Origin: Lachnospiraceae bacterium
Lineage (GTDB): Bacteria; Bacillota; Clostridia; Lachnospirales; Lachnospiraceae
Direction of reading: 5' to 3'
Length of the DNA: 64,000 nucleotides
Assembly (NCBI GenBank): GCA_017436865.1
Contig: JAFSCH010000017.1
Coordinates: 33,453 to 97,452, forward strand
The first letter of the stretch is position 1. The number at the start of each line of letters is the position of its first letter. This document shows, piece after piece, positions 29,300-58,700 of the stretch. The notes under the pieces are model-generated. The model worked only from the letters and a program-made list of their open reading frames with translations. It was not told where the DNA came from and did not search any database. The position numbers and the translations under genes are program-made.

Positions 29300-29315
29300 T
29301 CAATGAGAGGAATAT

Positions 29316-29807
29316 ATGTTACGCAGATTAGAAAAAAAGGATGCACCATTCATGCTAGAGTGGATGCATGATGAGGATATTACCGCAGGCTTTCAGCGAC
29401 CATTCATGGAGACAACATTAGAAGAAGTGTTGGCTTTTATTGAGAACAGCTTTGATGAGGAAAATCAAAATTTTGCGTTTGTGAATGAGCAGGATGAATA
29501 TATGGGAACCATCAGTTTGAAGCATATTTGTCATGTGAATGATAAGGCAGAATATGCAGTTGTTGCAAGAAAGTGTGCACAAGGGACTGGAGTAACTAAG
29601 ACGGCAACGGAGGAATTATTAAGATATGCCTTCGAAGAACTTGGTTTACATAAAATATACCTAAGTGTATTAGAAGAGAATATAAGAGCGCAGAAGTTTT
29701 ATGAGAAATGTGGCTTTGTCAAAGAAGGATTAGAAACCGATGCGGTGAAGATAAAGGGAAGATATCATAATCATATTTGGTATGGAATAGTTGAGAGGCA
29801 CATATAG
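29316..29807 (+). CDS. GNAT family N-acetyltransferase
   Basis: 163 residues. RimJ/RimL-type GNAT: LRRLEKKDAPFMLEWMHD at the start, the acetyl-CoA loop ARKCAQGTGVTKTA near residue 86, and the C-terminal NIRAQKFYEKCGFVKEG block. Located five genes after a sugar aminotransferase and three after the FdtA-like enzyme, it is the best candidate for N-acetylating the amino sugar, as the GNAT WecD does for dTDP-Fuc4N. Known FdtC/QdtC enzymes are left-handed beta-helix proteins, so this would be an unrelated replacement; that is inference. Behind GAGAGGAA. Confidence 0.82.
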   Translation: MLRRLEKKDAPFMLEWMHDEDITAGFQRPFMETTLEEVLAFIENSFDEENQNFAFVNEQDEYMGTISLKHICHVNDKAEYAVVARKCAQGTGVTKTATEELLRYAFEELGLHKIYLSVLEENIRAQKFYEKCGFVKEGLETDAVKIKGRYHNHIWYGIVERHI

Positions 29808-29840
29808 AAATCGTAAAAGTAATTAACGAAGGAGAAAGAT

Positions 29841-30278
29841 ATGGAAGATAATTATAAGGATACCGTATATCGAATGAGTGATTCGGCAACAGTGCTTCAT
29901 AAGAACAAAAAGTGGTTTAACACTTGCTATTTAGCAGGATATGTAGCAGAGTGTTATTGCAAGGAAATATTGCTTTTAGCAGAACAGGAAGGATATCACT
30001 TTCATAGTGCTGGTAGTGTAAGAAAGTTTAGCCATAAATTGGATAAATTAAAGGATGAAGTCAATCTGATTGCTCTAGTGGCAGGTGTAGCATCTGCATA
30101 CTGTATAGATGTGCAGAAGGAATGTCCAACAATATATGCTAATTGGAATCCTAATAAGCGGTATCAGAGCAACAGCCATATGTTTAATCAGGAAGTTAAT
30201 GCAGATAAAGTAATGAATGAAATGCAAAAATTGATGAAAAGTATTGTGCAAATGGAAATAGATGGGGTGCTGGTATGA
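29841..30278 (+). CDS. HEPN-like domain protein
   Basis: 145 residues, helical. WFNTCYLAGYVAECYCKEILL (split here as WFNTCYLAGYVAE and CYCKEILL) is the pattern of HEPN first helices, where a small-residue/Cys stretch packs the bundle, and a KFSHKLDKL segment follows. R61 and H65 are three residues apart, so the ribonuclease motif Rx4-6H is not met as written. The next gene, a large double ATPase, starts within its stop (four-base ATGA overlap), so the two form a unit. HEPN proteins paired with ATPases are common in toxin-antitoxin and abortive-infection systems. Function inferred. Confidence 0.6.
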   Translation: MEDNYKDTVYRMSDSATVLHKNKKWFNTCYLAGYVAECYCKEILLLAEQEGYHFHSAGSVRKFSHKLDKLKDEVNLIALVAGVASAYCIDVQKECPTIYANWNPNKRYQSNSHMFNQEVNADKVMNEMQKLMKSIVQMEIDGVLV

Positions 30279-32962
30279 TTCATTTTGATGAGGTAAAGGA
30301 CAAGGTTATAGTATTTGTAAAAAAGACTAAGGAAGTAGATAATGAGTATTATATTGTACGTGATGTGTATGGAAAGATATCTATCTATATTATCGGGGAT
30401 ACAGATATAGACAAATTGTATTTTGAACTTAAAGATGTGATTAGTGAAGCTTGGATCGGTCAGATAAGAATATTAGAAAAAGATTCTGTGTTGTTAGAGG
30501 AAATTATCTCTTGTAGTAAGGAAATAGAATCACAAATTTATTATAGTGAGAGACAGTTAGTAAAGCGTTCATGGAGAGGTGTGCAGTGTAGAAGCAGCGA
30601 TACGAACAGTAAAGTGGTTACATTTTATTCTTATAAGGGTGGAGTAGGAAGAACAACTACATTAGCTTTGACAGCGTTACAAATGGCGCGTGAAGGAAAA
30701 AAAGTAGTAGCGTTAGATTTAGATCTTGAAGCACCGGGTTTGTCAACTGTATTGAAACCAGAGAACGCAAAGCAGTATCCTCAATATGGTGTTGTGGATT
30801 ATTTGGTTGAAGGAGAAGTAAATCAAGAACATATAAAGCTGGATGAATATATGTATGCAGTTACAGATAAGAGCCTGTTAGGTATGGCAGGTGGTGAACT
30901 GTATGTAATGCAGGCGGCAAATATGATAGATAGTGAATATGAGAAATATTATTCTAAATTGTCAAGAATTGATTTTAATATGCCTAAGTATATGAACGAG
31001 AATGGTCCTATACAAGTACTGTTAAAAAAGATTGAAAAACAGTATGCACCAGACTATATATTGATTGATTCGCGAGCAGGTATTCATGATATAGGTGGAT
31101 TAGCATTATTAAATTATTCTGATGAAGTAGTGGCTTTGTTCTATGGGAATGAGCAAAATATGCTTGGATTAAAATTTGTGTTGCCTAGATTAGTTGCAGC
31201 TGAACTACCGTTTTATTTAATAAATACACCAGTTCCTGTGTTAGAAGAAGCTACACAAGAGGAAGTTATGTGCTACTTGAAAAATTGTTATCATATATTG
31301 TCTGAATGCGGTTATTTTGGTGATGAAATACCTGATATTTTTGATGAAAGCTCACCTCATTATCCAATAAATATTTTCTATGATGTTGTTAGTGCTAATC
31401 CTAATACAGTGACCAAATTGGTACAAATTTTGAATAGAGATGGAGAGCAGAATATTTATAAACAGCTTGCAAAATTGCTATTTGCTGAAAGTGAAGTGAC
31501 AACGGTTTCGGATTCAGACTGGAATAAGAAAAGTATGTTGCAGGCGATAAAAGAGATATCAGTTTCTTCTGCTGATGATGAATTTCTGTCATATGAAGAG
31601 TTGAAGCAAAATTTTTATCCATTGGTAGAATATAAATATGTATTTGACAACAGTAAGTTCATTATAACCGGTTCAAAAGGGAGTGGGAAGACTGCCTTAT
31701 TTAAAGCATTGAAATGTCAGCAGTATGCGCAGGCACTGGCTGAATATTTAGATATCCCTGAAAATGTTATACAATCCACAAAATGGATTGTTGGATTAGA
31801 TAAAGCAATAGGCTTTCCTACTAAGGCAAATATTAATGCGGTAGGAAAGACACGAGATAGAGAATATTATTCTATTTATTGGAAAGTATTAGCAATACGT
31901 GTTTTAAAGAATATAATTGAAGAAATTGGATTGATTTGTTCAGATGATATAAAGGAATTGATAAATTGTAAATATAGTGAGATTAGTACAATTGTTAGTT
32001 TTAAAAAGAATATAGATGAGCAGTTGTCCGATTATTTTATGGATATAGAACAGAAATTACAAGAAGAACAAAAAACGGTAATTATAACGTATGATTATTT
32101 AGATTATTATATAGATAAAGAGTATCGAGGAGAAATGATTTCGGAGTTATTGAATTTCTGGTGGGAGAATCATATACGTTTTCGTAATTTAAGGACAAAG
32201 ATATTTTTGCGTAAGGATATTCTAAATAATGAGGTATATTTAACAGATAAAGTGAAGTTAAGTAATTATCAGGCCACAATAGAATGGGATTATAATCATT
32301 TATTATCAATGTTATGGAAACGAATGATGGAAGCTAATGGGGATTTGCGAGAGTCAGTAAAACGTGTTTTAGAGAATAAAGGATATTCTATACAAGAATC
32401 GAAGGTAGTAGGGATTGTACCGAAACCAAGTGAGGAAATCAATAAGATTATTTTAGGAGAACTTATTGGTGAAAAAATGGGAAAAGGTAATAAAGCCTAT
32501 ACGTATAATTGGATTATGTATAGATTAGGAGATACCAATCAGAATATTGTTCCGAGAAGTATATTGAAGTTATTTTCTATAGCGGCACAAAACGAAATAA
32601 TTGAAATGGAAAATAGTAATAAGGATAATTATAAGTTGATTAGACCGCGTTCTTTGGAAAAGTCAATGCTTGAAGTGTCGAAGGACAGAGTTACTGATAT
32701 GCGAGAAGAATATCAAGAATATGCATGTGTATTTGATGATTTGCAAAATTATTGCAAAACTTTTCCAGTAGAAGAAATTGATTTACGTAAGGCTTTGATT
32801 CAATGTGGATTAAAAACAGAAAATCTAAATACAGAAATTGCAAAACTGATAGAAATAGGAGTTTTGAAAGAGTATCAGAATAAGAAAAGTGATCCTGTCA
32901 GATACCACATTCCGGATATTTATTTACGAGGAATGTCATTAACAAGAAAGGGATTCAACTAA
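30275..32962 (+). CDS. Double P-loop protein: KGGVGR (ParA/MinD-like) ATPase fused to a second ATPase
   Basis: 895 residues. Residues 1-110 form a small alpha/beta domain of unknown kind. KGGVGRTT (121-128) is the deviant Walker A of the ParA/MinD (SIMIBI) class, with Arg in place of the usual second Lys; DLDLEAPGLS (about 148-157) and YILIDSRAG (about 259-267) are its switch and Walker B blocks. A second P-loop, GSKGSGKT (466-473), begins another ATPase domain resembling the Sll1717-type P-loop family. The C terminus (about 760-895) looks like winged helices. Such proteins occur near defence genes. It is coupled to the HEPN-like gene. Function not known. Confidence 0.75.
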   Translation: MIHFDEVKDKVIVFVKKTKEVDNEYYIVRDVYGKISIYIIGDTDIDKLYFELKDVISEAWIGQIRILEKDSVLLEEIISCSKEIESQIYYSERQLVKRSWRGVQCRSSDTNSKVVTFYSYKGGVGRTTTLALTALQMAREGKKVVALDLDLEAPGLSTVLKPENAKQYPQYGVVDYLVEGEVNQEHIKLDEYMYAVTDKSLLGMAGGELYVMQAANMIDSEYEKYYSKLSRIDFNMPKYMNENGPIQVLLKKIEKQYAPDYILIDSRAGIHDIGGLALLNYSDEVVALFYGNEQNMLGLKFVLPRLVAAELPFYLINTPVPVLEEATQEEVMCYLKNCYHILSECGYFGDEIPDIFDESSPHYPINIFYDVVSANPNTVTKLVQILNRDGEQNIYKQLAKLLFAESEVTTVSDSDWNKKSMLQAIKEISVSSADDEFLSYEELKQNFYPLVEYKYVFDNSKFIITGSKGSGKTALFKALKCQQYAQALAEYLDIPENVIQSTKWIVGLDKAIGFPTKANINAVGKTRDREYYSIYWKVLAIRVLKNIIEEIGLICSDDIKELINCKYSEISTIVSFKKNIDEQLSDYFMDIEQKLQEEQKTVIITYDYLDYYIDKEYRGEMISELLNFWWENHIRFRNLRTKIFLRKDILNNEVYLTDKVKLSNYQATIEWDYNHLLSMLWKRMMEANGDLRESVKRVLENKGYSIQESKVVGIVPKPSEEINKIILGELIGEKMGKGNKAYTYNWIMYRLGDTNQNIVPRSILKLFSIAAQNEIIEMENSNKDNYKLIRPRSLEKSMLEVSKDRVTDMREEYQEYACVFDDLQNYCKTFPVEEIDLRKALIQCGLKTENLNTEIAKLIEIGVLKEYQNKKSDPVRYHIPDIYLRGMSLTRKGFN

Positions 32963-32990
32963 GTAAGATAATATGCAGAGGAATAGATAA

Positions 32991-34652
32991 ATGATATCAA
33001 TAATTGTATTTTCAAAAGGGCGTCCAATGCAGTTACATGCGTATCTGGAGAGCTTATTAAAGTACTCAGATGCACAGCAGAAATGGATTACCGTATTATG
33101 CTGTGAAATGGAAAAAATTCGATACGAAAAGGTAAAAAAGAGCTTTCCGGAAGTGAATTGGGTGACAGAAACTCGTTTTGAAACGGATTTGAAGCAGGCA
33201 ATAGCACAGGCAAATGATTATATTATGTTTGGCTGTGATGATGTTGTGTTTACAAGAAAGTTCAGTCTGGAAAAGGCATGCGAGTACTTAAAGACGAATG
33301 AACAGGTCTTTGGTTTTAGCATGCGTTTGGGCGAGAATATTAAGCCAATGCCGGAGAATCTGTCAAAGGATAATGAAGTACTGGAATGGAAGTGGGAAGG
33401 CTGTAAAGAAGCACACTACAACTATCCTTGGGAGCTAGACTGTACAGTATATCGCAAGGAAGATGTATTGCAGCTTACGAATCAGAAGGAAGTACAGATT
33501 AAGAATCCGAATTACTATGAAGCAATGATTACGGAAGATAATCGAAGTGAGAGAATTGCTAGAAAGCACATGGCTTCTAACAAAGAGTCGGGTTGTGCGA
33601 TTGTCATTACCGTAAATCGTGTACAGGAGACACATCAGAATGGTTTCGATGATAGTATGATGACGGATATCTATTCTTTAGACAAGCTTTATAATGATGA
33701 AGACAATTATCTTGATATTGATAAGATATCTCAAATGAGTAACGATATCATTCATGTAGGCGCAGAGTATTTTATACTGAAAAAGCAGGCTAAGGGCTAT
33801 TCTCAGAACCGCTTATGGAAGAAAAAAGCAAAAGCATTACAAGATAAGCTTTTGAGATTCCCTAAGCGTGTATATCGTTATTGTGAAAAAAGAAAGTATT
33901 TAAGTGGAGCATATGAGAATAAGCTTCATATTCTGAGTACCGATGAGACGCTAACGGCATTAGAGAACATGAATTTTAGCTTTTTACGTTTTGGAGATGG
34001 CGAGATAGCGATTGCAAATGGTCAGGGAATCCCTTTTCAGGAAGCAAATGAAACGCTTGGAGGAAGGTTAAAAGAGCTGCTTACCGTGCAGGAGGAAGGA
34101 CTTAAGGTAGGAATCCCATACTATTATATGCATCCGATTAAGAATATGAATTCCTTCGTTCAGAACTTTGCATATTCATTAGGAAAGCAGAGAAAGTACT
34201 TGCTTGCAAACTGCAAGAAAGAAAATGTATATATAGATACAGCCTTAACACAGGTATATCAGACCTATGGCGAGTACGATTTTGATGCATATTATACACG
34301 TATGCAGAAATTACTGGAGGGAAAAGATGTTACCGTTATCTGTGGAGAAGGTGTGCTTGATAAGCTGGAATATAAAGCTTTGGATGTATGCCATTCGGTA
34401 GAATACGTATATGGACCAAGTATGAATGCATATTCTCATTATGATAAGTTATTAGAGCAGGCTAAGAAGATTGATAAAAATAGATTAGTTCTTGTAATTC
34501 TTGGACCGACAGCTAAGGTACTGGTATATGACTTATATAAGGCTGGTTACACAGCATGGGATATAGGGCATTATCTGAAGGATTACGATGCTTATAAGAA
34601 GCAAAGACCGAGAACAGAGGCAGAGATTACACAGTTTTATAAGCCGGATTAA
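32991..34652 (+). CDS. Two-domain glycosyltransferase: GT-A N-terminal domain plus GT-D (DUF1792) domain
   Basis: 553 residues. The N-terminal ~240 residues look like a GT2/GT-A transferase (MISIIVFSKGRPMQLHAYLE; metal-site-like GCDDVVF near 79-85). From about 310 the chain matches the DUF1792/GT-D domain: LRFGDGEIAIANG (R333 to E338 is the RFGDGE signature), GVLDKLEY and VILGPTAKVLVYDLYKAGYTAWDIGHY. GT-D enzymes such as streptococcal DGT1 transfer glucose in glycoprotein glycan synthesis. One chain may therefore add two sugars in turn. It lies between the two defence-like cassettes. Strong for family, inferred for sugars. Confidence 0.82.
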   Translation: MISIIVFSKGRPMQLHAYLESLLKYSDAQQKWITVLCCEMEKIRYEKVKKSFPEVNWVTETRFETDLKQAIAQANDYIMFGCDDVVFTRKFSLEKACEYLKTNEQVFGFSMRLGENIKPMPENLSKDNEVLEWKWEGCKEAHYNYPWELDCTVYRKEDVLQLTNQKEVQIKNPNYYEAMITEDNRSERIARKHMASNKESGCAIVITVNRVQETHQNGFDDSMMTDIYSLDKLYNDEDNYLDIDKISQMSNDIIHVGAEYFILKKQAKGYSQNRLWKKKAKALQDKLLRFPKRVYRYCEKRKYLSGAYENKLHILSTDETLTALENMNFSFLRFGDGEIAIANGQGIPFQEANETLGGRLKELLTVQEEGLKVGIPYYYMHPIKNMNSFVQNFAYSLGKQRKYLLANCKKENVYIDTALTQVYQTYGEYDFDAYYTRMQKLLEGKDVTVICGEGVLDKLEYKALDVCHSVEYVYGPSMNAYSHYDKLLEQAKKIDKNRLVLVILGPTAKVLVYDLYKAGYTAWDIGHYLKDYDAYKKQRPRTEAEITQFYKPD

Positions 34653-34667
34653 GTGGAGATGCTAATA

Positions 34668-35816
34668 ATGAAACAGGAATATCAAATTTTTGAATTAGAA
34701 GCAAAATTGAAAGATGAGATGAATGGTCTGGAATATGAAGAAGAATCTGATGACCTCGGATTAGAAGATATGGAGGAAATACCTTATTGCGCAGATGACA
34801 TTCGTATAGATCAGAAGATGATTTCACTCTATCAGGTGTTTAGGTGGATACAGCAAGAAAAATTGAACCTTCGTCCTGATTTTCAAAGAAATTTTATATG
34901 GAACAGAAAGAAACAGTCATTACTTATAGAATCTCTCATGCTAAAGATACCTATTCCTGCATTTTATTTTGATGAAGATTCAGAAGGGAATAGAACTGTT
35001 ATTGATGGTTTGCAGAGATTATCGACGATTAGTGATTTTCTTGAAGGTAAGTTCCGACTAAATGGTTTGCAGTATTTAGTAAATTGTAATGGGAAAAGCT
35101 ATGATGAATTAGAAAAAAAGTATCAGATGCGAATAGAAGATACACAGTTGGCGGTGAATATTTTGGATGCAAAATGTCCGCCAACCGTGAAATTTGATGT
35201 ATTTAGAAGGATTAATACAGGAGGAGTTCCGCTCAATTCACAAGAAGTACGTAATGTAATGGCAAATAGAAGAACACAGGAGTTTTTGTTAAGATTGTCA
35301 CAGTCAGAAGCTTTTGTAAGCGCAACACGAGGAAAAATAAAGGATAATCGAATGGGAGCGCAAGAGCTTTGCTTGCGATTTGTAACTTATCTTGTGTTAT
35401 ATGATAGAGAAAATAGAAATTTTATTTCTTTTGGAGAAATGAATAATTTGTTGGACAATGCTATTATTGAATTGAATAAAATGGATGAAATAGAATTGAA
35501 GATATTTGAAGATCAATTTGTGACCAGTATGAAAAGGTGTATGTGCTTACTAGGAGAAAAGGCATTTTCGAAACCGAACAATAAAAATGTTATTAACAGA
35601 GCATTATTTATAAGTTGGAGTGTCATTCTTGCCAATAGAGATTTTTCCTTAGAATGGTGTACGAAGAAATTTGAGAAAGCATGTAAGCTTCAACAAAAAT
35701 ATTTGCAAGAAGATATAGGGTATTTTAATTCGATTACATCATCAACGAGCTCCAAAAGAAATATGCTAATGCAATTTCATTATGTTGAAAAAATATTGGA
35801 GGAATTAAATGATTAA
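34668..35816 (+). CDS. DUF262 (ParB/Srx-like nuclease fold) protein
   Basis: 382 residues from ATG 34668, which has AGTGGAG about nine bases upstream; the GTG at 34653 directly abuts the previous stop and is less likely. LRPDFQRNFIWN (about 68-79) and VIDGLQRLSTI (about 111-121) are the DUF262 core, shared with the N-terminal half of GmrSD type IV restriction enzymes. No DUF1524 HNH half follows in this chain or in the next genes. It overlaps the next gene by eight bases. DUF262 proteins are often parts of anti-phage systems; the substrate here is unknown. Confidence 0.82.
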   Translation: MKQEYQIFELEAKLKDEMNGLEYEEESDDLGLEDMEEIPYCADDIRIDQKMISLYQVFRWIQQEKLNLRPDFQRNFIWNRKKQSLLIESLMLKIPIPAFYFDEDSEGNRTVIDGLQRLSTISDFLEGKFRLNGLQYLVNCNGKSYDELEKKYQMRIEDTQLAVNILDAKCPPTVKFDVFRRINTGGVPLNSQEVRNVMANRRTQEFLLRLSQSEAFVSATRGKIKDNRMGAQELCLRFVTYLVLYDRENRNFISFGEMNNLLDNAIIELNKMDEIELKIFEDQFVTSMKRCMCLLGEKAFSKPNNKNVINRALFISWSVILANRDFSLEWCTKKFEKACKLQQKYLQEDIGYFNSITSSTSSKRNMLMQFHYVEKILEELND

Positions 35817-36876
35817 GTCATTACATTTGGAAGATTATAAGTGTTTTACGAATCAAAGGATAGAACTAAATAATATAACACTTTTTACAGGAGCAAATGC
35901 TGCTGGGAAATCCAGTATAATTCAGGCTATGCTGTTATATCAGGCAGGGTGTTCTAATAAAGGAATTATTAATGTAAGTCAGGCGTTAGGAGTCCAAGTA
36001 GGAAGTCCGAAGGCGTTTATTGCACAAGATTCAGAAGGAAAAGGAGCATTTGACTTTAAAATCAGTTTTGATAATGCTGGGCTCGCATTTTATGTAGATA
36101 AGGAAAATGGTTTGGATCTACGAGCAATACCTGATAGTGAAGCAGATGAAATAGAGATATCCTATCTAAATGCAGAACGTATAGGACCAAGAATGTCTTA
36201 TCGTGCCGGGGGCGAAGAGAAGATATTATCAGATGGAAGTAATGCAGCATATTTGATAGAAAAGGCTGACAACAAAGACCTTAAAATACCGGAGCTGTTA
36301 TTATTGAATTCTGATATTTCTCAAAAGTTTTCTTATCAATTAGAACAGTGGATGAGTATTATTTTGGGAAATATGAAGTTATCTGTTAAAGTTGATAATA
36401 ATAAAGCAGAAACGGAGATATTAATAAAAAACGAATTGGTCCAGGACTTTATAACACCAACGCAGACCGGCTTTGGTATTAGCTATATTCTTCCGATTGT
36501 TACAGCTGCATTGTGGGCTTCTACGCAGCAAAATCAAATATTGCTGATAGAAAATCCGGAAGCTCATTTACACCCGGCAGCACAAAGTAAAATAGGGAAA
36601 TTTCTTGCACTGGTTGCAGCAAGTGGGGTACAGGTTATTGTGGAAACACACAGCGAGCATGTTGTTGATGGTGTACGTGTGCAGATGACAGCGTTAGAAA
36701 AGACAGAAGATGTATATGTTCACTTTTTGTCACAAGAAAATGGGCATGTAGAAATAGAGCAATTAACAGTAAATAGATATGGTGAATTGAGTGATTGGCC
36801 GGAATATTTTTTTGATCAAAAGCAAATGGATTTACGAGAATTAATAAAGATGAGATTGAAAAATGAGGGTAAATAA
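35809..36876 (+). CDS. AAA ATPase with ABC/SMC-like fold, DUF3696 type
   Basis: 355 residues. LEDYKCFTNQRIELNNITLFTG opens a RecF/OLD-like ATPase; Walker A is GANAAGKSS (28-36), Walker B LLIENPEAHLHP near 245-256, and VQVIVETHSEHVVDGVR near 275 carries the H-loop. The signature region QTGFGISYILPIVTAALW is that of the AAA_15/AAA_21 group, and the C terminus FFDQKQMDLRELI fits DUF3696. No TOPRIM domain follows, unlike OLD nucleases. It overlaps both neighbours (8 and 14 bases), making a three-gene set with the DUF262 protein. Probably a DNA-responsive regulator or sensor; inferred. Confidence 0.83.
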   Translation: MIKSLHLEDYKCFTNQRIELNNITLFTGANAAGKSSIIQAMLLYQAGCSNKGIINVSQALGVQVGSPKAFIAQDSEGKGAFDFKISFDNAGLAFYVDKENGLDLRAIPDSEADEIEISYLNAERIGPRMSYRAGGEEKILSDGSNAAYLIEKADNKDLKIPELLLLNSDISQKFSYQLEQWMSIILGNMKLSVKVDNNKAETEILIKNELVQDFITPTQTGFGISYILPIVTAALWASTQQNQILLIENPEAHLHPAAQSKIGKFLALVAASGVQVIVETHSEHVVDGVRVQMTALEKTEDVYVHFLSQENGHVEIEQLTVNRYGELSDWPEYFFDQKQMDLRELIKMRLKNEGK

Positions 36877-37717
36877 TATACTAAAGGAAGAAAGTCTTGG
36901 TTATGACATTACAGGTATTGGATTGACTGAGAGAATACACGATATCAAGGCATTGGATGAGGTATCTGATTTCTGTAAAAAACAAGGAGAGAAGATAGAA
37001 TACAGTATTGCTATGTATGAAATGCAAGTAGAGCCAAATTTAACAATGATGGATCTTTTATATAGTGAGAGAATGGCAACTTCGGCAGATGCAATGGCAA
37101 TGCTTATGGAGCTCATAGATAAGAAATGGAAGCTGCAAGTGCAGGAAGAACCTCAAGGAGAAATAATCAGATGTTCCTTGGGGAAATCAAACAATGCGGC
37201 ACATAATATGACAGAGTATATGGCAGAACGGCAAAAGCTTCTCAGGACTTTGACAAAGCAAGAGGAATATTTGGAGTTTATGAAGAGCTGCTTTAGTAAT
37301 AGTGTTTTTGCCGAAGGATTTGATGAAGAATTCATGCATATTAAAGATTTTAAACAGCATATGGATGAGATTACGGATTGTTTACAGGTATTAGATAGTG
37401 AAGCGATTACATTATATGAAGAATATAAAAATAATTTGCAACAGGCGATGAACATTCTGACAAAGAAGCTTTGTACATGTGGACCAGATCCAAAACATGA
37501 GAAAGATTTACATTTTATATTTCAGTATGAAGTAGCAGAAAATGGTGAAGTAGATATTCGAAAGAAAGATATTATATGTTCACCGCATCTGAAGCTAATT
37601 CGAGATGACTCAGACTTACGAATTTACTTTTATTGGAAAGATGCAGATATTTGCGAAGGGAAAAAAGTATTAATCGGAAGAGTGGGCAGGCATACATGGA
37701 GTAAGTATAAAAAATAA
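36863..37717 (+). CDS. Unrecognised third component of the DUF262/AAA set
   Basis: 284 residues that I cannot place in a family. It starts within the AAA gene (14-base overlap), so it is translated together with it. The N-terminal half is mixed; a helical middle (about 115-210, EYMAERQKLLRTLTKQEEYL onward) looks coiled-coil-like; the C-terminal ~70 residues read as beta-rich, with the block IYFYWKD then KKVLIGRVGRHTW at the very end. Two Cys (CTCGPD, about 208-213) are not enough for a zinc site. No HNH, TOPRIM or PD-(D/E)XK motif is visible. The partner context suggests an effector or adaptor. Confidence 0.6.
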   Translation: MRVNNILKEESLGYDITGIGLTERIHDIKALDEVSDFCKKQGEKIEYSIAMYEMQVEPNLTMMDLLYSERMATSADAMAMLMELIDKKWKLQVQEEPQGEIIRCSLGKSNNAAHNMTEYMAERQKLLRTLTKQEEYLEFMKSCFSNSVFAEGFDEEFMHIKDFKQHMDEITDCLQVLDSEAITLYEEYKNNLQQAMNILTKKLCTCGPDPKHEKDLHFIFQYEVAENGEVDIRKKDIICSPHLKLIRDDSDLRIYFYWKDADICEGKKVLIGRVGRHTWSKYKK

Positions 37718-37757
37718 TCTGCTTGTATATTGTGGATTAAAATAGATGGAGATTACT

Positions 37758-39518
37758 ATGTTAAAGAAAATAGGTTATGTATTGAACAGAAAGCAGAAGC
37801 TACAGTTGGCTATGCTTTTGGTTATTATATTTATAGGTGCATTTGTGGAAATGCTTGGAGTATCTGCAATACTTCCGATTGTTAATATAGCCATAAGCCC
37901 GGAATCGATAGAAGAGACGTGGTATTTAGTATGGATTCGAAGTACCTTTGGATTACATGATGCCAAGCAAATGCTCATGTTCATGTCAGTTGTTATGATT
38001 GTGATATACATCATAAAGAATATATATATTATGTTCATGTACAGTGAGCAATATCGATTTACATTCAACAATCAGCGAAAATTGGCAGTGCAAATGTTAG
38101 ACTGTTATATGCAACAGGACTATATCTTTCATGTGTCAAAGAACGTAGCAGAGTTGCAAAGAAATGTTACAGCAGATGTAAATGGCTTTTTTACGGTACT
38201 CCTGAATACCTTACAGCTTATAGCAGAGGTAAGTGTTTGTGTACTTGTTTCTCTCTTCTTGGTAAATACAGATCTGATGACAACGATTTTGCTTGCAGTA
38301 TTAATGGTAGTCTTTATTTCGGCATTTGCAGGGATTTTCAAGAAAGTTCTCGTAAAAAAGGGTGAAGAGAACAGAGTTGCCAATATGCATGTAACAAAAT
38401 GGATTCTTCAGTCCTTTTCAGGAATTAAAGAGATTAAGGTTATAGATGGAGAGAAATTCTTTATCACGAATTATGATAAGCATTATAGGAAATGTGCAGC
38501 ATTACAAAGACAACAGTCTACGATGACGATAATGCCAAGACCAATTATGGAGACGGTATGTATCTGTGGATTGCTGTTTACCGTAATTATCAAATTGCAG
38601 ATTGCGCAAACAGAGATTACAGAATTGATTCCTACATTAACTGCTTTTGCAATGGCGGCATTCAGATTACTTCCTGCATTTAACCGTATTACAGGATATT
38701 TGAGTGGAATTATGTTTAATAAACCATCTATCGATGCAGTCTATCAGGATTTGATAGAGATAGAGGCATTGACGAATAAGAAAAAAGAAGTAATTGATAA
38801 TAAGATAGATTTGAGATTAAAGGATGCTATAAAGGTGGAGAAGTTATCCTTTAAATATCCTGAGAATGACAAATGGATATTGAAGGATGCAGAATTGGAA
38901 ATTAAAAAGAATAGCTCGGTTGCATTAGTAGGTGCTTCCGGTGCAGGTAAGACTACGGTAGCAGATTTGATCTTAGGTCTGTTTGAGCCTCAAGGCGGTA
39001 GAATTACGGTAAATAATCTTGATATTAAGACCAATATGGCAGCATGGCATAGCAATATCGGATATATACCTCAGAATATCTATCTGATTGATGATACCAT
39101 AAGCGCAAACGTTGCATTTGGAATGGATGTTGAGAATATCGATGAGCAGGCAATGCGAAAGGCATTGAAGGAAGCAAAGCTCGATGAATTCGTGGATAGC
39201 TTACCAGATGGAATAAATACCATAATTGGTGATAGAGGTGTTAAGCTTTCCGGCGGTCAGAGACAGAGAATCGGAATTGCAAGAGCCCTGTATCGTAATC
39301 CAAATGTATTAATTCTGGATGAAGCAACTTCAGCTCTTGATAACGAGACAGAGAAAGAAGTAATGAATGCCATTGATGGACTTCATGGAACAAGAACCTT
39401 GATTATTATCGCACATAGATTAAGTACAATTGAGAAATGTGATGAAATCTATGAAGTGGGAAATGGGAAGATTACAAAGAGAGAAAAAGGAGAAGTGTTG
39501 GGGGATAGCAAGGAGTAA
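37758..39518 (+). CDS. ABC exporter, MsbA/PglK-like lipid-linked glycan flippase, second copy
   Basis: 586 residues from ATG 37758 (GGAG six bases upstream; the frame opens at ATG 37746). Membrane domain, then an ATPase with GASGAGKTT (392-400), LSGGQRQR and ILDEATSALD. Same organisation as 6614-8359, with aligned N termini and an identical end of the ATPase domain (IIAHRLSTIEKCD / IIAHRLNTIEKCD). The two are paralogues, clearly diverged, so they may flip different lipid-linked glycans. It stands right after the DUF262 set and begins the final stretch of the first polysaccharide region. Confidence 0.88.
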   Translation: MLKKIGYVLNRKQKLQLAMLLVIIFIGAFVEMLGVSAILPIVNIAISPESIEETWYLVWIRSTFGLHDAKQMLMFMSVVMIVIYIIKNIYIMFMYSEQYRFTFNNQRKLAVQMLDCYMQQDYIFHVSKNVAELQRNVTADVNGFFTVLLNTLQLIAEVSVCVLVSLFLVNTDLMTTILLAVLMVVFISAFAGIFKKVLVKKGEENRVANMHVTKWILQSFSGIKEIKVIDGEKFFITNYDKHYRKCAALQRQQSTMTIMPRPIMETVCICGLLFTVIIKLQIAQTEITELIPTLTAFAMAAFRLLPAFNRITGYLSGIMFNKPSIDAVYQDLIEIEALTNKKKEVIDNKIDLRLKDAIKVEKLSFKYPENDKWILKDAELEIKKNSSVALVGASGAGKTTVADLILGLFEPQGGRITVNNLDIKTNMAAWHSNIGYIPQNIYLIDDTISANVAFGMDVENIDEQAMRKALKEAKLDEFVDSLPDGINTIIGDRGVKLSGGQRQRIGIARALYRNPNVLILDEATSALDNETEKEVMNAIDGLHGTRTLIIIAHRLSTIEKCDEIYEVGNGKITKREKGEVLGDSKE

Positions 39519-39547
39519 AAGTACTTGAAGTAGAGAAGGAGAGCTAT

Positions 39548-40399
39548 ATGATTTATGCAATGACATGTGCAGACAGTAACTACATGCCTTGCGCAGAGTT
39601 TCACATGGAGACGGCGAAAAAAAAGGGAAAAGTTGATAAAACGATTATATGCAATATCGAAGAGCTTGACGAGGAATTTAGAAATAAGAATCAAAAAATA
39701 TTATCTTCAGGAGAAGGAAGAAAAAAAGGATTTTATATATGGAAACCTTATTATGTAAACAAAATACTGTCGCAATTACAGTACGGAGACTTTTTGATTT
39801 ACTTAGATAGTGCTGGATTCTATTATCGTAATGATGTTCATGAAATTGTAAATTATATGCTGAAAAAGCATATAGATATGGTCGGAACAAGAAGATTTTC
39901 TTATTTAGACAAGCATTGGACGAGAAGAGATACCTTTGTGTATATGGGATGTGATACGCCAGAATATACAGATAGATGTCAATGCATGGGTGGCTGTTTT
40001 GTTTTACAAAAAACAGAGAAGACTGTAAAACTGATACAGGAATGGATTGATTTTTCACAGAATTTTCAGATTATTGCTGATGCAGAGAATACTTGTGGAT
40101 TAGATAATTATGATGGGTTTGTTGCTCATCGTCATGACCAGAGTATTATGTCGATTTTACAGACAAAGTATCATGTAGTGACAATTGAAAAAATTCCGGT
40201 AGCTGATTTTTATGTATATCATCATACTATGGAAACGTCGATACGAGGAATAAAAAAACAACTTCGTAAAAACAGAAGAGAGCAAATTAAAAAGGCTTTA
40301 AAAAGAAAAGATATAAAAATGATATATTATATAGAGCGAGAGCGGTATTATAATACATCATTGGTACAAAGAAGAATACGATCAAGGAATTGTAAGTAG
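39548..40399 (+). CDS. Probable GT-A glycosyltransferase of the 'YIWKPY' family
   Basis: 283 residues, behind GAAGGAG. The sequence shares GFYIWKPYYVNK, DFLIYLDSAG (metal site-like), RRDTFVYMGCD and HRHDQSIMSIL with the gene at 51234-52070 (GYYLWKPYFLNK, DYLIYTDSG, KRDTFILMGCD, HRHDQSVWSLM), so both belong to one family. The order of these motifs fits a GT-A fold sugar transferase, as found in capsule clusters. The C terminus is very basic (many Lys/Arg, about 235-283), which may hold it to the membrane. Followed by a strong terminator. Reaction inferred. Confidence 0.68.
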   Translation: MIYAMTCADSNYMPCAEFHMETAKKKGKVDKTIICNIEELDEEFRNKNQKILSSGEGRKKGFYIWKPYYVNKILSQLQYGDFLIYLDSAGFYYRNDVHEIVNYMLKKHIDMVGTRRFSYLDKHWTRRDTFVYMGCDTPEYTDRCQCMGGCFVLQKTEKTVKLIQEWIDFSQNFQIIADAENTCGLDNYDGFVAHRHDQSIMSILQTKYHVVTIEKIPVADFYVYHHTMETSIRGIKKQLRKNRREQIKKALKRKDIKMIYYIERERYYNTSLVQRRIRSRNCK

Positions 40400-40447
40400 A
40401 AAAAGTCCTTTGCATGGATTTGTGGAAATTTATGCAAAGGACTTTTT
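40400..40447. terminator. Bidirectional intrinsic terminator
   Basis: A perfect 16-base inverted repeat, AAAAAGTCCTTTGCAT at 40400-40415 and ATGCAAAGGACTTTTT at 40432-40447, with a 16-base loop. The A-run on one side and T-run on the other make it work in both directions. It lies exactly between the convergent ends of the + gene (stop at 40399) and the minus-strand YfhO gene (stop at 40452). Confidence 0.9.
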
Positions 40448-40451
40448 ATGG

Positions 40452-43016
40452 TTATATTTCTCGGTTACTTTTATTTATTATATAAAAAGTTATTAAAGTT
40501 GAAAAGATAGTAATAAGGAAAGCAATTTTAATACCAGGAGTACAATAGGAAAAGATTATTTCGTGTTTTCCTTCATCTACATCAATTCCCATAAACATGC
40601 TATTGATACGATAAATATCAACTTCTTTACCGTCAACTTTAGCAGACCAGCCAGCACTGTAAGGTAAAGAAAGACATAACATACGGGGGTCCTGCAAATT
40701 TACCTGTGCTGAAATACAGTTGGTTTCAATACTAAGATTAGACATATCTATACGCAATTCAGAAATGATATCATGATAGCTGGAATAATCATAATTGATT
40801 AGTTGTAAAGTTATTTGGTCATCAGCAGAAACTTTGATAGTATATTCCTTCAAAGTTTCATGGTCAACACATCCTAAATTCATACCAATATATCCATTAT
40901 TATGTTCGGGAAGAACACTTGCTTTGGAAACGAGCGTTTTATTTTCATAAATTTCGAATAGATTGCCGACATCGAGGTGTTTTATAAGAATATAATTTTC
41001 ACAGTTAGGTAATAATTTCATATTGAAATGGAGTTCATCGCCAGCTTGTAAATGGATACTATCTTTATATGAATCAGTATTTTGAATTGAAATGATATCA
41101 TTTATGTAACTGTTTAGAACTTCTTTGTTATTTATTTTCTTGAGTTTCCCGTCATAAGAATCTAAGCAAGCCATTTGTGATATTAATGCCTGTATAGAAA
41201 AGCCATCTAAGTTATCCAGCTTATAGTCGGCAATTGAACGGTAGCCATACATAATTGGTAAAAATTCTGAATTTCTATATAATGACCATTTTCCATCAGC
41301 TGTCTTTTGGTGAAAATCAAAACCATAAGGTATTTGAACATTTTCGTTACTAGGAACAACCATGTATTTTACACCACATAAAGTTTCTAAAGTAGCTCGA
41401 TTATCCAAACCACGATTAGTGATTTTGCTGGTTATATGAGGGGAAACATTCCATTGTTGCATAGTATTTGTAAAATAACTATTTGAAATACTGTAATAAT
41501 TAGATATTCCATTGTAATTTTGCAGAAAGGCTATGTTTGGATAAGTACCTGGTTCTAAATAAGTTACAGCATTATCAACTCTGAAAAAATCTTTATCGTT
41601 GATAAGTTCGCTTATAACTTCTCTTTGTTGAACAGAATCTATAGGCTTATCAAGATAGTTTTCTTTCCAGCAGATATGTATGGAGTATGTACAAACAACT
41701 AAAAAAAGAAGTTGTATAAGTTGTTTTGTATATGAATATTTCAATTTATTTAGGAGAGGAATAACAATTACTAATGTAAACCATATTATTGTGTATGATA
41801 CAAGAGTGATATAATATCTTCTGTTGTCAAGCAATTCGCAACTTCTTCCAATATATATAAGAAGTATAAGAGGAAATGTAATTGCTACTGTTTGAATGGA
41901 TTTTAAATGAAAAAGTTCATCATAAATCTGTACTGCAAGAAAAGCAATATAAAAAATAACTACAATAACCCAACGATCATATGAGCCAAAAAAACCAGAC
42001 ATAATTCGATTGATAACCGGCATTGACGTTAATAAAAGTAGTATTATAAGGTTATATCTATGCTTTTTATAAGAATGAGAGGTAAAAAGCACTAAAAGGC
42101 ATATGACACCAACACTGACTAAGGATAAAACTTGAAAGCTACTGTTATACTGCGGTATAAATATATTTTTAAATAAATTTATGAATAGTTCTTTTGAAAA
42201 TAAAGAAATATTTATATTAGAAACATTAGTTCTGTTACTGGTAAAAAAGCTGTATAATACAGGAAGAAAAAACACACAGGACATTCCAATTCCTAAAAGG
42301 TATTCAATAAGCAGATTCCCAATGGTGTGTAAAGACTTCTTTAGGGAGATTCTTTGCGAAGCAAGTTTGTAAAGGACATAAACAGCAAGAGTAATAGAGC
42401 CTACATATAAAAAGAAAAAACCAGAAAGAGCAAAAAGAAAAGTAGAAAGTGTTAATATGCCCTTTTGTGTAGCTTTAATGTTCTTTTCGGCACCATATAT
42501 TACTAATGGAATACAGTACATTGCATGAGTAAAAATGATGAACATATTACAATGTAGCGTAAAACCCGTAAAAGAGTATATGAGTGCTCCAAAAATATAT
42601 GCATTGTCGTTCTTTGAATTATCAATTTCAAAAGCTACAAGAATAAAAGATAGCCCGCCTAATAGGATTTTGAAATAAAATATAGCAGTATAAACATATG
42701 GTAGCATATTATCTTCAAAAAATAGAAAAAGAAGATAAAAAGGATCACCAAAACCATAGTAATTAAGAGTAGCTATAATATCTTCCCCTAGTCCCAAAGT
42801 ATATCCAAACATTGGAAAACTAAATTGTCCGTGAGATAGATTAGATAAAAACTCTGTGAAGCATCTTTTGATATATAAAGCGGTTGGGTACATTTGGTTA
42901 ACAGCATCCCAACCACCAAAAGCAGCTTGCTTATCTAAACTGAAGCGAATTACTATAGGCATAATAATAAATAGATAAAGAATGACATATAGTAGATATT
43001 TGCGTTTATTTTTCAT
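40452..43016 (-). CDS. YfhO family membrane protein (GT-C-like)
   Basis: 854 residues on the minus strand, the only clear gene in that direction. ATG at 43016 is chosen because GGGGG lies eight bases upstream; a frame from 43043 is open. About twelve membrane segments precede a large extracytoplasmic region. The first loop GGWDAVNQMYP and the C-terminal LPYSAGWSAKVDGKEVDIYRINSMF block, shown here as two parts LPYSAGWSAKVDG and KEVDIYRIN, are the YfhO (PF09586) signature. YfhO is used in Gram-positive bacteria to glycosylate lipoteichoic acid with a polyprenyl-linked sugar; here it may decorate the surface glycan or LTA. The A/T-rich composition differs from upstream. Confidence 0.85.
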   Translation of the reverse strand: MKNKRKYLLYVILYLFIIMPIVIRFSLDKQAAFGGWDAVNQMYPTALYIKRCFTEFLSNLSHGQFSFPMFGYTLGLGEDIIATLNYYGFGDPFYLLFLFFEDNMLPYVYTAIFYFKILLGGLSFILVAFEIDNSKNDNAYIFGALIYSFTGFTLHCNMFIIFTHAMYCIPLVIYGAEKNIKATQKGILTLSTFLFALSGFFFLYVGSITLAVYVLYKLASQRISLKKSLHTIGNLLIEYLLGIGMSCVFFLPVLYSFFTSNRTNVSNINISLFSKELFINLFKNIFIPQYNSSFQVLSLVSVGVICLLVLFTSHSYKKHRYNLIILLLLTSMPVINRIMSGFFGSYDRWVIVVIFYIAFLAVQIYDELFHLKSIQTVAITFPLILLIYIGRSCELLDNRRYYITLVSYTIIWFTLVIVIPLLNKLKYSYTKQLIQLLFLVVCTYSIHICWKENYLDKPIDSVQQREVISELINDKDFFRVDNAVTYLEPGTYPNIAFLQNYNGISNYYSISNSYFTNTMQQWNVSPHITSKITNRGLDNRATLETLCGVKYMVVPSNENVQIPYGFDFHQKTADGKWSLYRNSEFLPIMYGYRSIADYKLDNLDGFSIQALISQMACLDSYDGKLKKINNKEVLNSYINDIISIQNTDSYKDSIHLQAGDELHFNMKLLPNCENYILIKHLDVGNLFEIYENKTLVSKASVLPEHNNGYIGMNLGCVDHETLKEYTIKVSADDQITLQLINYDYSSYHDIISELRIDMSNLSIETNCISAQVNLQDPRMLCLSLPYSAGWSAKVDGKEVDIYRINSMFMGIDVDEGKHEIIFSYCTPGIKIAFLITIFSTLITFYIINKSNREI

Positions 43017-55675: not shown

Positions 55676-55724
55676 GTGAATAGTAGTTTAGTTTTACACA
55701 ATGGAAGAGTTAGGGGGAAAAGGA

Positions 55725-58700
55725 ATGAAACGTTATCTTTTTGGCCGCATATTCGGAATATTTTTAGCAGGTATACTGATGATAGAGAGCAGTATACCTG
55801 TTTTTGCTACAGAGATTTCGACGGAACTACAACAGGTAGAAGCCGTGGAAGAAGTAGAACAGGAAGAAATTGCAGAAATAGAAACGGTTGAAATCGAGGA
55901 AAAAGAGGAGACCGTGCAGGCGGAGAGCCAGAACACGCAACAATCAGAGGCGGAAGTGGCTACTTCGGAGGCGGTTTCGACAGAGTCGCAGATGCCGACA
56001 ACAGAAGAGGAATCTTTAGAAGTAGAGACAACGGATGAATCGGAACAGTCGGAAGAAGTAACGCAGGAGAGTACAAGCGAAGCTGCTACAGATGAAACGG
56101 TTGAAGATGAGACAGAGGAAGAAACGGAAATAACAACCGAGGAAATGGTAGAACAGTTGCCGCAGACTGCATCGTTTTCGATGAGGGCAGCAGCTACAGC
56201 ACCTTCACAGGTATCTGTGATAAAGAAAACGGCAACGACAGCAATGATTCTTTGGGAAACCGTCGAAGGTTATACAGAATATCAGATCTATAGAAAGAGC
56301 AATACAGATGCTGATTTTTGTGTTCTGGATAATAAGATTATTGAGACGACGAGTAATGTAGGAGCATTTTTAGACACTAGCTGCGAAAACGGTAAAGTTT
56401 ATTATTATAAGATTTGTGCTGTAGTGACTTCGGATGGAAAGGTAGAGAGTCAAGGACCTTTTTCAGAAGTTGTAAGCAATCGTGTAGATTTACAGCAAAT
56501 AGTATTAAATAAGTCAGAACTTGCCATGGAAAAAGGTGAGAAAGAAGTATTGTCTGTTAGTTATGCGCCTAGCTTTGCAGAAGGAATGTACAAGGTTACA
56601 TGGACAAGTAGTAATGAAAAGGTTGCGACTGTAGAAGCAGGTAAGGTTATTGCGGTAGGAGCAGGAACGACAGTTATTACAGCTATGGCAGGGAATAAGA
56701 CAGCAACTTGTGAAGTAACCGTTAGCTTACCTTTAGAAGGGCTTGTACTTAGTACAGACCAATTGGAGCTTGCCAAGGGAGAGGATGCTACCGTATCAGT
56801 ACGATTAGAGCCGGTAGATACAACGGATTCGGTAGACTATCAGTGGAGTAGCAGTGATGAAAATGTTGCTATCGTGGTAGCAGATAAGCAAGATGCACAT
56901 GTTGCACGTATCATTGCAAAGAGTGAAGGGAATGCAATCATTAGCGTATCAGCAGGAGGCATGAAGGCAGAATGTAAGGTACGTGTCAAGCTTCCGATTA
57001 CGGATCTTGAATTAAGCGACTATAAGGTTCAGCTGTTGGAAAAGAATGACAGTGTTGACGTAGAGATTAAGGTTGATACTTCAGACAAGATAGAATATGA
57101 AATTGACAATCCTGAGCTTGTGAAATGTGAATTGAATGAACAGGTGTTAACATTGAAATCACAGGGAGTGTTAGGAACGACAAAAGTTCATGTAACAGTT
57201 GGAATGCAAACGGTTGAATTAATAGTTGAGGTGGTAGAAGAGAGAACGCAAGTAGACACTAGCGAGGGTCTCATTCCGGTAAGTGATATCGAAGTATCGG
57301 TAGCATGGAGAAAAAAAGGCGAGGAAGTAGAGACAAAAGAGCTTCCGATGATTCTCTATTTAGGAGATGAGGTTTATTCTACTGCAACAGTAAGTGCCAA
57401 GGTAAGTCCGGCGAATGCTACCAATAAACAGATTAGCTGGGAAATTTCAGATAAATCTGTTGCAACCGTTGATGAAAATGGAGTAGTGACAGCAGTTGGA
57501 ATTGGGCGTACCAATATTACTGCAACAGCAGACAACGGCTTGGAAGAGAAGATAACGGTAATTGTATTGCCGGGAGAAAGAACCTTTGATGTGGAAGATT
57601 CTAAGATAACCTTATATTGTAATGAGAATCTGCCTGATAAGATTAAGAATAAAAGAAGCTATCAGGTAGTGTTACCGTCAGATATGACATTTGAATATCG
57701 TTCTTCTAATGAAGAAATTGCCACAGTCGATGAAAATGGACAGATTACGGCTCATAAGCCGGGCAAAGCAGCTATTTCTGTCATTGGAGTAGAAAATGGT
57801 AATGTGAAGACGATTCAGGTGACGGTGAAAAAAGCCATTGAGTCGATAGAATTACCATTAGACACGATGGAAGTAATAGAGGGTACACAACCAGAGATTG
57901 CATTTAAGGTATTACCGGCTGATGCATCTATAGATTGCTTAAATACAATATCGATAAAAGCAAGCGATGCGAAACATATTAAAATAGACAGCAATTGGAC
58001 CAAGGGAAAACCAAGTGGAACCTTTAAGTTTTCTGCAATCAAGGAAACAGATAAAGAACAAACGATAACGATTACGGTTGGTGATACGAATAACACTGCT
58101 ATCGTAAAAAAGGAAATCAAAGTTAAAGTTAAAAAGTCGGCTGTTCAGGCAAGCTCTATAAAGATAACCGGACAAAATAAGATGCAAAGTGAAACGAGTC
58201 AACAGTTAGGAATCGATTTGAAAGACAGAAGTGGGAATCCGCTTAATACGTCATTAATGCCAATCGGTTATGTTTCTTCTGATACCGAGATTGCAACGGT
58301 CGATGAAAATGGTAAAGTAACTGCGCATAAGGGTGGAAGGGCTACGATTACAGCGTATGTCATGAATGGAAGCAATATCAAGGCGGATTATGCTATTACC
58401 GTAGAGCAAAGACCAACGGATATTGTATTTGACAGATCAGTTTATGGTGTGTCAAAAGCAGTAAATCAGGCAGTTGTGGTAGCACTGAAACCTGTATTCG
58501 TGCCGGCAACAACAGTAAATAAGAATGTAACATGGGCGGTTTCAGAAATAAGGACGGTAGATGGAGCATCGATAGAAGGTGCTGTAGCAGATTACTTTAC
58601 CGTAGATGCAAATGGTAGGGTAACAGCGAAAGCAAAGGCAACAGAAGGCATGTTTGCAGTTATTACGTGTACAAGAAAATCTTATGCAGAGGATGAGAAT

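Follow-up and report, generated by a model that had tools for sequence, protein, structure and literature searches.

Menshen (NsnABC), a three-component anti-phage system, was reportedly described by Millman et al. in 2022, and the title of a 2025 paper by Li et al. speaks of Menshen domain polymorphism; the third genes compared here show the same. We analyzed a stretch of 64,000 nucleotides from a Lachnospiraceae bacterium (contig JAFSCH010000017.1, positions 33,453 to 97,452), referred to as the window, in which three overlapping genes within a glycan operon match the components of this system. Passages of Mariano and Blower (2023; PMC10952713) name Menshen among the DUF262 systems without DUF1524, state that protection is abolished when the DUF262 gene is mutated or deleted, and refer to an OLD nuclease and to one Menshen component with a TOPRIM-family domain.

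The three genes encode a Menshen system

The genes and the predicted module of the third protein are located as follows (window coordinates):

34668..35816, + strand: nsnA, DUF262/GmrSD_N protein of 382 amino acids (387 when read from the GTG at 34653); Pfam PF03235, PADLOC NsnA
35809..36876, + strand: nsnB, OLD/RecF-like AAA ATPase with a C-terminal DUF3696, 355 amino acids; PF13175, PF12476, PADLOC NsnB
36863..37717, + strand: nsnC, polymorphic third component of 284 amino acids; PADLOC NsnC
37235..37717, + strand: C-terminal module of NsnC (residues 125-284), a probable effector domain, with conserved residues in alignment A8

An earlier note, made from the sequence alone, had described three genes on one strand linked by overlaps of 8 and 14 bases, and both the positions and the overlaps proved exact. 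The nsnA start is the ATG at 34668, which is preceded by a GGAG-type ribosome site; an alternative in-frame GTG is located at 34653, immediately 3' of the stop codon of the preceding gene. PADLOC profiles matched all three proteins: NsnA with 1.9e-106 (residues 17-385 of the 387-residue form), NsnB with 3.1e-91 (residues 1-347 of 355) and NsnC with 5.2e-32 (profile PDLC03899, residues 4-277 of 284), and two further NsnC models matched the third protein with 8.1e-14 and 3e-12. Since these matches cover nearly the full length of the proteins, the trio is almost certainly a Menshen system. The note could not place the third protein, which is now assigned to NsnC, a component for which many PADLOC profiles exist; its proposal that the three genes form a defence module, in which the third protein may serve as effector or adaptor, agrees with the homology to NsnABC. 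The window copy resembles Menshen in all three components by profile, in the order nsnA-nsnB-nsnC and in the overlap of the genes, and it differs in its location within a glycan operon and in an NsnB without a TOPRIM match. It is a known type of system and not a new one, and nothing sets it apart as a type; we infer from the sequence that this copy has anti-phage activity. The present analysis adds the name of the system, the modular build of NsnC with a set of conserved residues, and a genomic location that is used repeatedly in the genus.

Loci were collected from viral contigs, named genomes and further relatives (177 loci at the time of the count); this sample was gathered by likeness to the window proteins and is biased towards the window's kind. 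It contained 42 NsnB proteins that are distinct letter by letter (some are near copies and one is the window's own), paired by an adjoining NsnA recognized by profile (E<=1e-15). A third open reading frame (ORF) of 223-336 codons is located directly downstream of 40 of the 42 pairs, at -42 to +84 bases and in 39 of these 40 cases with a spacing of no more than 15 bases. The two remaining pairs end at a contig edge, with 0 and 94 bases of room, and six further trios from the genus also have the third gene. The search for the three-gene order in other genomes that the note had proposed returned the same order in 40/42 pairs, and absence of the third gene beside most pairs, which the note had named as speaking against its proposal, was not seen. 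Because the order recurs in many loci, the layout of the trio is more than chance. A housekeeping family for gene 3, likewise named there as a counter-argument, was not found: Pfam, NCBIfam and PHROGs gave no meaningful family, only three weak and meaningless Pfam matches.

No close copies of the window NsnC were detected in viral contigs, also with a 4-row alignment, and none of either the window NsnC or the NsnC of locus L016 in plasmids. The 4-row profile matched only the window across 398 genomes of the phylum, and in the class-wide set (391 genomes) the C-terminal module profile and NsnB (E<=1e-60) match only the same two genomes/contigs.

NsnA and NsnB

The three proteins were scanned with Pfam at a listing threshold of E<=0.1. 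NsnA matched GmrSD_N (DUF262, PF03235) with 3.2e-23, showing that the DUF262 half of GmrSD is present, as the RPDFQR and DGLQR motifs had led the note to propose. The protein contains RPDFQR, IDGLQRL and RRINTGG; D113, G114, Q116 and R117 (382-residue numbering) are invariant in alignment A3, and a regular expression for DGxQR finds the motif in 37 of 38 NsnA proteins longer than 300 residues. NsnB matched AAA_15 (PF13175, 1.5e-26), AAA_21 (1.8e-17) and DUF3696 (PF12476, 1.4e-10). Its GANAAGKSS and ENPEAHLHP motifs bear out the ATPase with intact Walker A and B, and a third motif, ETHSEH, is present as well. K34, E248, E251 and H281 are invariant in alignment A4, and regular expressions detect Walker A in 41, ENPExHxHP in 35 and ETHS in 35 of the 42 NsnB proteins. 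Both NsnA and NsnB of the window have NTPase motifs. The absence of TOPRIM, likewise claimed, holds: no TOPRIM family is among the Pfam matches of this 355-residue protein, which has DUF3696 at its end.

Searches against solved structures gave distant DUF262 matches for NsnA and OLD/PtuA for NsnB, with 1.6e-17 between profile A4 and PDB entry 6p74. NsnB is of the OLD/AAA_15 type also found in Gabija GajA and OLD nucleases (GajA profile 3.5e-18) but has no TOPRIM match, and the trio lacks a UvrD-like partner. An identity of NsnB as an OLD nuclease was rejected on account of the missing TOPRIM match in Pfam.

The DUF262 domain with its DGxQR motif is common to NsnA and the type IV restriction enzymes GmrSD and BrxU, and the GmrSD_N domain in gene 1 would fit a GmrSD-like enzyme that is split across three genes and reads modified phage DNA. 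The trio differs from these enzymes in having a separate ATPase and a third gene in place of the DUF1524/HNH half, and the note was right that this half is missing, as no DUF1524/HNH family is among the Pfam matches of any of the three proteins. The gene 1 protein furthermore matches the NsnA profile (1.9e-106) better than the PD-T4-2_A profile (2.0e-35) or a type II restriction endonuclease model (1.7e-14). We regard a split type IV enzyme as highly improbable.

NsnC class of the window and its C-terminal module

A profile of the window's NsnC class was built from 18 third genes (alignment A1) and matched 24 of the 40 third genes at E<1e-6, 18 of them contained in the profile and six independent; a looser letter pattern of the class is found in 25 of the 40. 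Members are only 11-39% identical to the window protein. In alignment A8, which contains 22 of the 24 members (two near copies were left out), His242 and Arg253 are conserved in 22/22 rows, Lys244 in 21/22, Phe256 and His277 in 20/22 and Cys239 in 19/22. Apart from Cys239, these residues lie in the motifs H242-x-K244, R253-I-Y-F256 and G275-x-H277, the last of them within the C-terminal VLIGRVGRHTW block that the note had pointed out, which occupies residues 269-279. The conserved polar residues of this one class are direct targets for mutagenesis.

Profile comparison connects the four sub-groups of the class: five of the six pairs match over their C-terminal ~120-160 residues (89.7-98.8%), and in the remaining pair (96.4%) the alignment covers most of the length. 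Links to other classes are scarce; the best, at 50.3%, is N-terminal and leads to L125/L128 (L labels denote loci, G labels genomes and C labels contigs). The best PADLOC NsnC profile matches 20/22 proteins of the window's class. PADLOC NsnC profiles also match 13/16 third genes of other classes, up to four per profile, and one of these 13 has a DUF2971 match (3.3e-9). For NsnC as a whole, comparison with solved structures gave matches at chance level only.

Three other third genes (L005 6034-6984, L040 8198-9124 and L041 8201-9115) end in a common HGM(L/F)E..GxHxGE..FDGS block. We take this block to be reminiscent of colicin E3-type RNases.

A Gp49 domain in sister NsnC proteins

NsnC looks modular from these comparisons, with a common N-terminal part and differing C-terminal parts. 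The third genes of G007 (L252 9279-10154) and G018 C118 (L233 3708-4577), both in the glycan operon, share an N-terminal stretch of ~130 residues with their counterparts in G003, G005, G018 C101 and G023 (hhalign 97.0%). A C-terminal Gp49 domain is present only in G007 and G018 C118, with hhalign giving 96.7% over 220-284 as against 0.3% for the sisters, and Pfam PF05973 (Gp49) scoring 40.4 and 35.2 bits at a cut-off of 23.9. In the search against solved structures the G018 C118 protein reached HigB chains at 0.31-0.41, which is not significant. HigB/Gp49 proteins are mRNA interferases of the RelE superfamily; this domain ends two sister NsnC proteins, whereas the window NsnC does not match it. 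One sub-group of the window's class (L022, L046, L050, L052 and L074) has the N-terminal part in common with the G003, G005, G018 C101 and G023 sisters (91.3%) and aligns with the window sub-group along most of the length (96.4%). Because this sub-group bridges both, the H-K-R-H module of the window seems to be positioned where the sisters carry the RNase domain.

The sister proteins with a Gp49/HigB domain point to NsnC as an effector, and finding them moved our estimate for that role from somewhat better than even to a good likelihood. The H-K-R-H module of the window is most likely an effector as well. The main competing explanation is that NsnC is a variable sensor or adaptor whose C-terminal domains recognize phage parts, while the attack itself is left to NsnA-NsnB. 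No component varies more than the third gene, which would also be expected of a recognition part, and passages of PMC10952713 describe DUF262 proteins partnering DNA nucleases in GmrSD and BrxU. However, an RNase-type Gp49 domain occupies this very position in two sister NsnC proteins, no recognizable nuclease domain was found in NsnA or NsnB with Pfam, and the same polar residues persist in 20-22 of 22 rows despite the low identity to the window protein. A sensor role for NsnC is for these reasons unlikely.

Proposed mechanism

The best explanation, to which we assign a probability of roughly 0.82, is a Menshen system with NsnA-NsnB as sensor and NsnC as effector. NsnA (DUF262, a ParB/Srx-like NTPase) and NsnB (an OLD-like ATPase) would sense an infection cue and, until then, restrain NsnC by way of its N-terminal part. 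Once the system is triggered, turnover of NTP would release NsnC, whose freed C-terminal module with the conserved His, Lys, Arg and His would act as effector, perhaps as an RNase, and phage growth would be halted through harm to the infected cell.

Several observations weigh against this explanation. The table of a 2026 review (PMC12926258) lists the Menshen mechanism as unknown, and the OLD nuclease and the TOPRIM-family domain mentioned in the passages of PMC10952713 were not found in the window NsnB with Pfam. The C-terminal module has no match among solved structures (best E 0.18), and RNase chemistry of the window's own module is a guess from its conserved residues that we put a little short of an even chance. 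Kinship of the module to RelE/ParE or Gp49 appeared likely by eye, but profile comparison with Gp49/ParE gave hhalign values of only 0.3-0.9%. That comparison had an empty ParE row and lost one of its Gp49 rows, which left six, and rows close to a contig end are possibly mis-cut; in the controls Gp49 against ParE reached only 0.4% and Gp49 against the G007/G018 third genes 96.7%. This excludes a close Gp49 domain in the module, whereas a distant one would be compatible with these values. Lastly, for the N-terminal part of the window sub-group no direct similarity was detected to either the Gp49-bearing proteins (0.4%) or their sisters (0.7%), the link running through one sub-group only.

The trio within a glycan operon

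The neighbours of the trio in the annotated part of the window are mostly glycan genes: glycosyltransferases, a DegT aminotransferase, FdtA, acyltransferases and an ABC transporter. Together they appear to serve the synthesis of a sugar coat on the cell surface. Two variable slots of this surface-glycan operon are occupied, Menshen being located in slot 2, the gap between the GT-D and ABC transporter genes, and a candidate defence module in slot 1, just 5' of the GT-D gene:

29841..32962, + strand: candidate defence module PDC-M28 in slot 1, M28A (145 amino acids) and a fused M28B-M28C (895 amino acids); PADLOC
32991..34652, + strand: GT-D glycosyltransferase gene in the host glycan operon, separating slot 1 from slot 2; Pfam PF08759 1.5e-52
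37746..39518, + strand: ABC transporter gene in the same operon, bounding slot 2 on the right; Pfam PF00005 1.5e-30, with DNA relatives in the genus

Only one terminator-like site was detected in 29300-40500, at 40402-40445 (20 pairs, 4-base loop; shuffles give 3.3), and for this reason co-transcription of the trio with the glycan genes is likely, if unproven. This stem separates the final gene of the plus-strand run from the YfhO gene, which is convergent to it. A promoter scan returned 58 sites as against 52.7 in shuffles, a count that speaks neither for nor against internal promoters. A look for traces of transposition in 29500-38200 gave short repeats in two copies and a couple of imperfect inverted pairs; the arms of the longer pair (25 bases, 80%), at 29729 and 37575, fall within two genes, and we take these pairs as chance. 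The same segment contains no tRNA and no Rfam family, and its base composition is like that of its neighbours.

The long same-strand glycan run, with its first terminator-like site only at 40402, would also suit a trio that has been absorbed into the biology of the operon, where it might for instance regulate how the surface glycan is made, and that no longer forms a defence module of its own. Menshen-type trios are moreover recurrent at the GT-D gene in the genus. Stretches were fetched by transporter match from 24 of the 36 other genus genomes with DNA relatives of the transporter, many of which are short matches only. The full-length GT-D gene is present upstream of the transporter in 19 of the 24 fetched loci, two of which (L167 and L168) are near-identical and possibly not independent. 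The gap between GT-D and transporter is empty in 17/19 and holds glycosyltransferase, DUF6311 or SIS genes in the other two; 5' of the GT-D gene, acyltransferase or other genes are found in some loci, and the remainder are empty there. A Menshen-type trio stands there in only 2/19, in G032 (L170) and in G018 (L233, with the NsnB frame broken in that assembly), which argues that the operon works without one. In addition, the trios at the GT-D gene differ in slot and NsnC class, and their kin elsewhere are located in a defence island or in unrelated places. A glycan regulator is on these grounds very unlikely.

A clean empty site for the G032 trio exists in G023 (L170 3558-7304 compared with L171 7995-8053, flanks 83-93% identical in DNA). 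In L170 3500-3900, upstream of the G032 NsnA, an N run has a near-perfect inverted repeat of 14 bases at its borders; this run may represent a small mobile element or else a gap in the assembly at the repeat, and the repeat before NsnA is absent from the window.

Menshen-type trios in the genus

The NsnB profile (E<=1e-15) gave 17 rows at 16 places in 13/38 genus genomes, and 13 of the 16 places were examined (G006, G033 and G007 C95 were left out). NsnA-NsnB-third gene trios are present at 11 of the 13, the NsnA match in the G018 C101 trio being weak (7.4e-9); G009 and G026 have no NsnA match alongside. Four of the 11 trios are located at the GT-D gene of the glycan operon: that of the window in slot 2, and those of G032, G007 and G018 C118 in slot 1. 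The G007 trio (L252), fetched through its NsnB match, is intact and located 5' of the GT-D gene. Random placement (target 40.4 kb of 4.2 Mb) would give 4/11 with a chance of 2.7e-6 and 3/10 with 1e-4, figures that are rough, calculated after the fact and ignore shared descent (the G007 and G018 C118 trios are alike, and those of G003 and G023 look alike). Since the G007 and G018 C118 trios are alike, we read the four as at least three acquisitions.

The remaining trios of the genus lie elsewhere. The closest relative of the window's Menshen, in G008 (L032 92-5485), has an NsnB with 52% identity and stands downstream of an NAD-epimerase gene and two IspD-family genes. The Menshen of G018 C313 adjoins type III restriction-modification genes, a GajB-type helicase and a QatD-type gene, and the G030 trio is found among MraW, Leu/Phe-tRNA transferase and a PDC-M37B-like gene. 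In G089, a genome of the same order, a Menshen adjoins WYL and PprDinG genes. In G023 (L255 3887-12000) and G003 (L256 858-16001) similar genes of ~620 amino acids are located upstream and similar large genes downstream, and these two look like one shared acquisition at another place.

Trios and one PDC-M28 recurring at a single glycan gene suggest that receptor variation and intracellular immunity could be exchanged on one piece of DNA. That the glycan operon is a recurrent landing site for immune modules, with receptor glycan and intracellular immunity exchanged on one segment and expressed from one operon, is doubtful, though the two further GT-D-site trios made it somewhat less so than before. 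A search of the literature found nothing on point about defence modules inside glycan clusters, by which their absence from print is not shown. Larger sets of genomes would allow such recurrence to be counted straight away.

PDC-M28 and further observations

All three components of the PADLOC candidate PDC-M28 are matched by the module at 29841-32962: M28A with 2.8e-15, M28B with 7.5e-57 (residues 1-398) and M28C with 5.6e-42 (residues 423-893). In the window, M28B (a KGGVGR-type ATPase) and M28C (a Sll1717-type ATPase) are fused into the protein of 895 amino acids, and the M28A protein of 145 amino acids is presumably HEPN-like. The fused protein was found in 2/144 genomes, including the window's own (E<=1e-40), and the relative in G018 (L230 3332-6468) is 39% identical and of the same length, with a small gene upstream. 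In the glycan operon of one relative, an AAA-ATPase_like/PDDEXK_9 protein is encoded just before a short GT-D gene (L175 6477-8603). An ORF of 2002 codons occupies positions 55701-61709 of the window.

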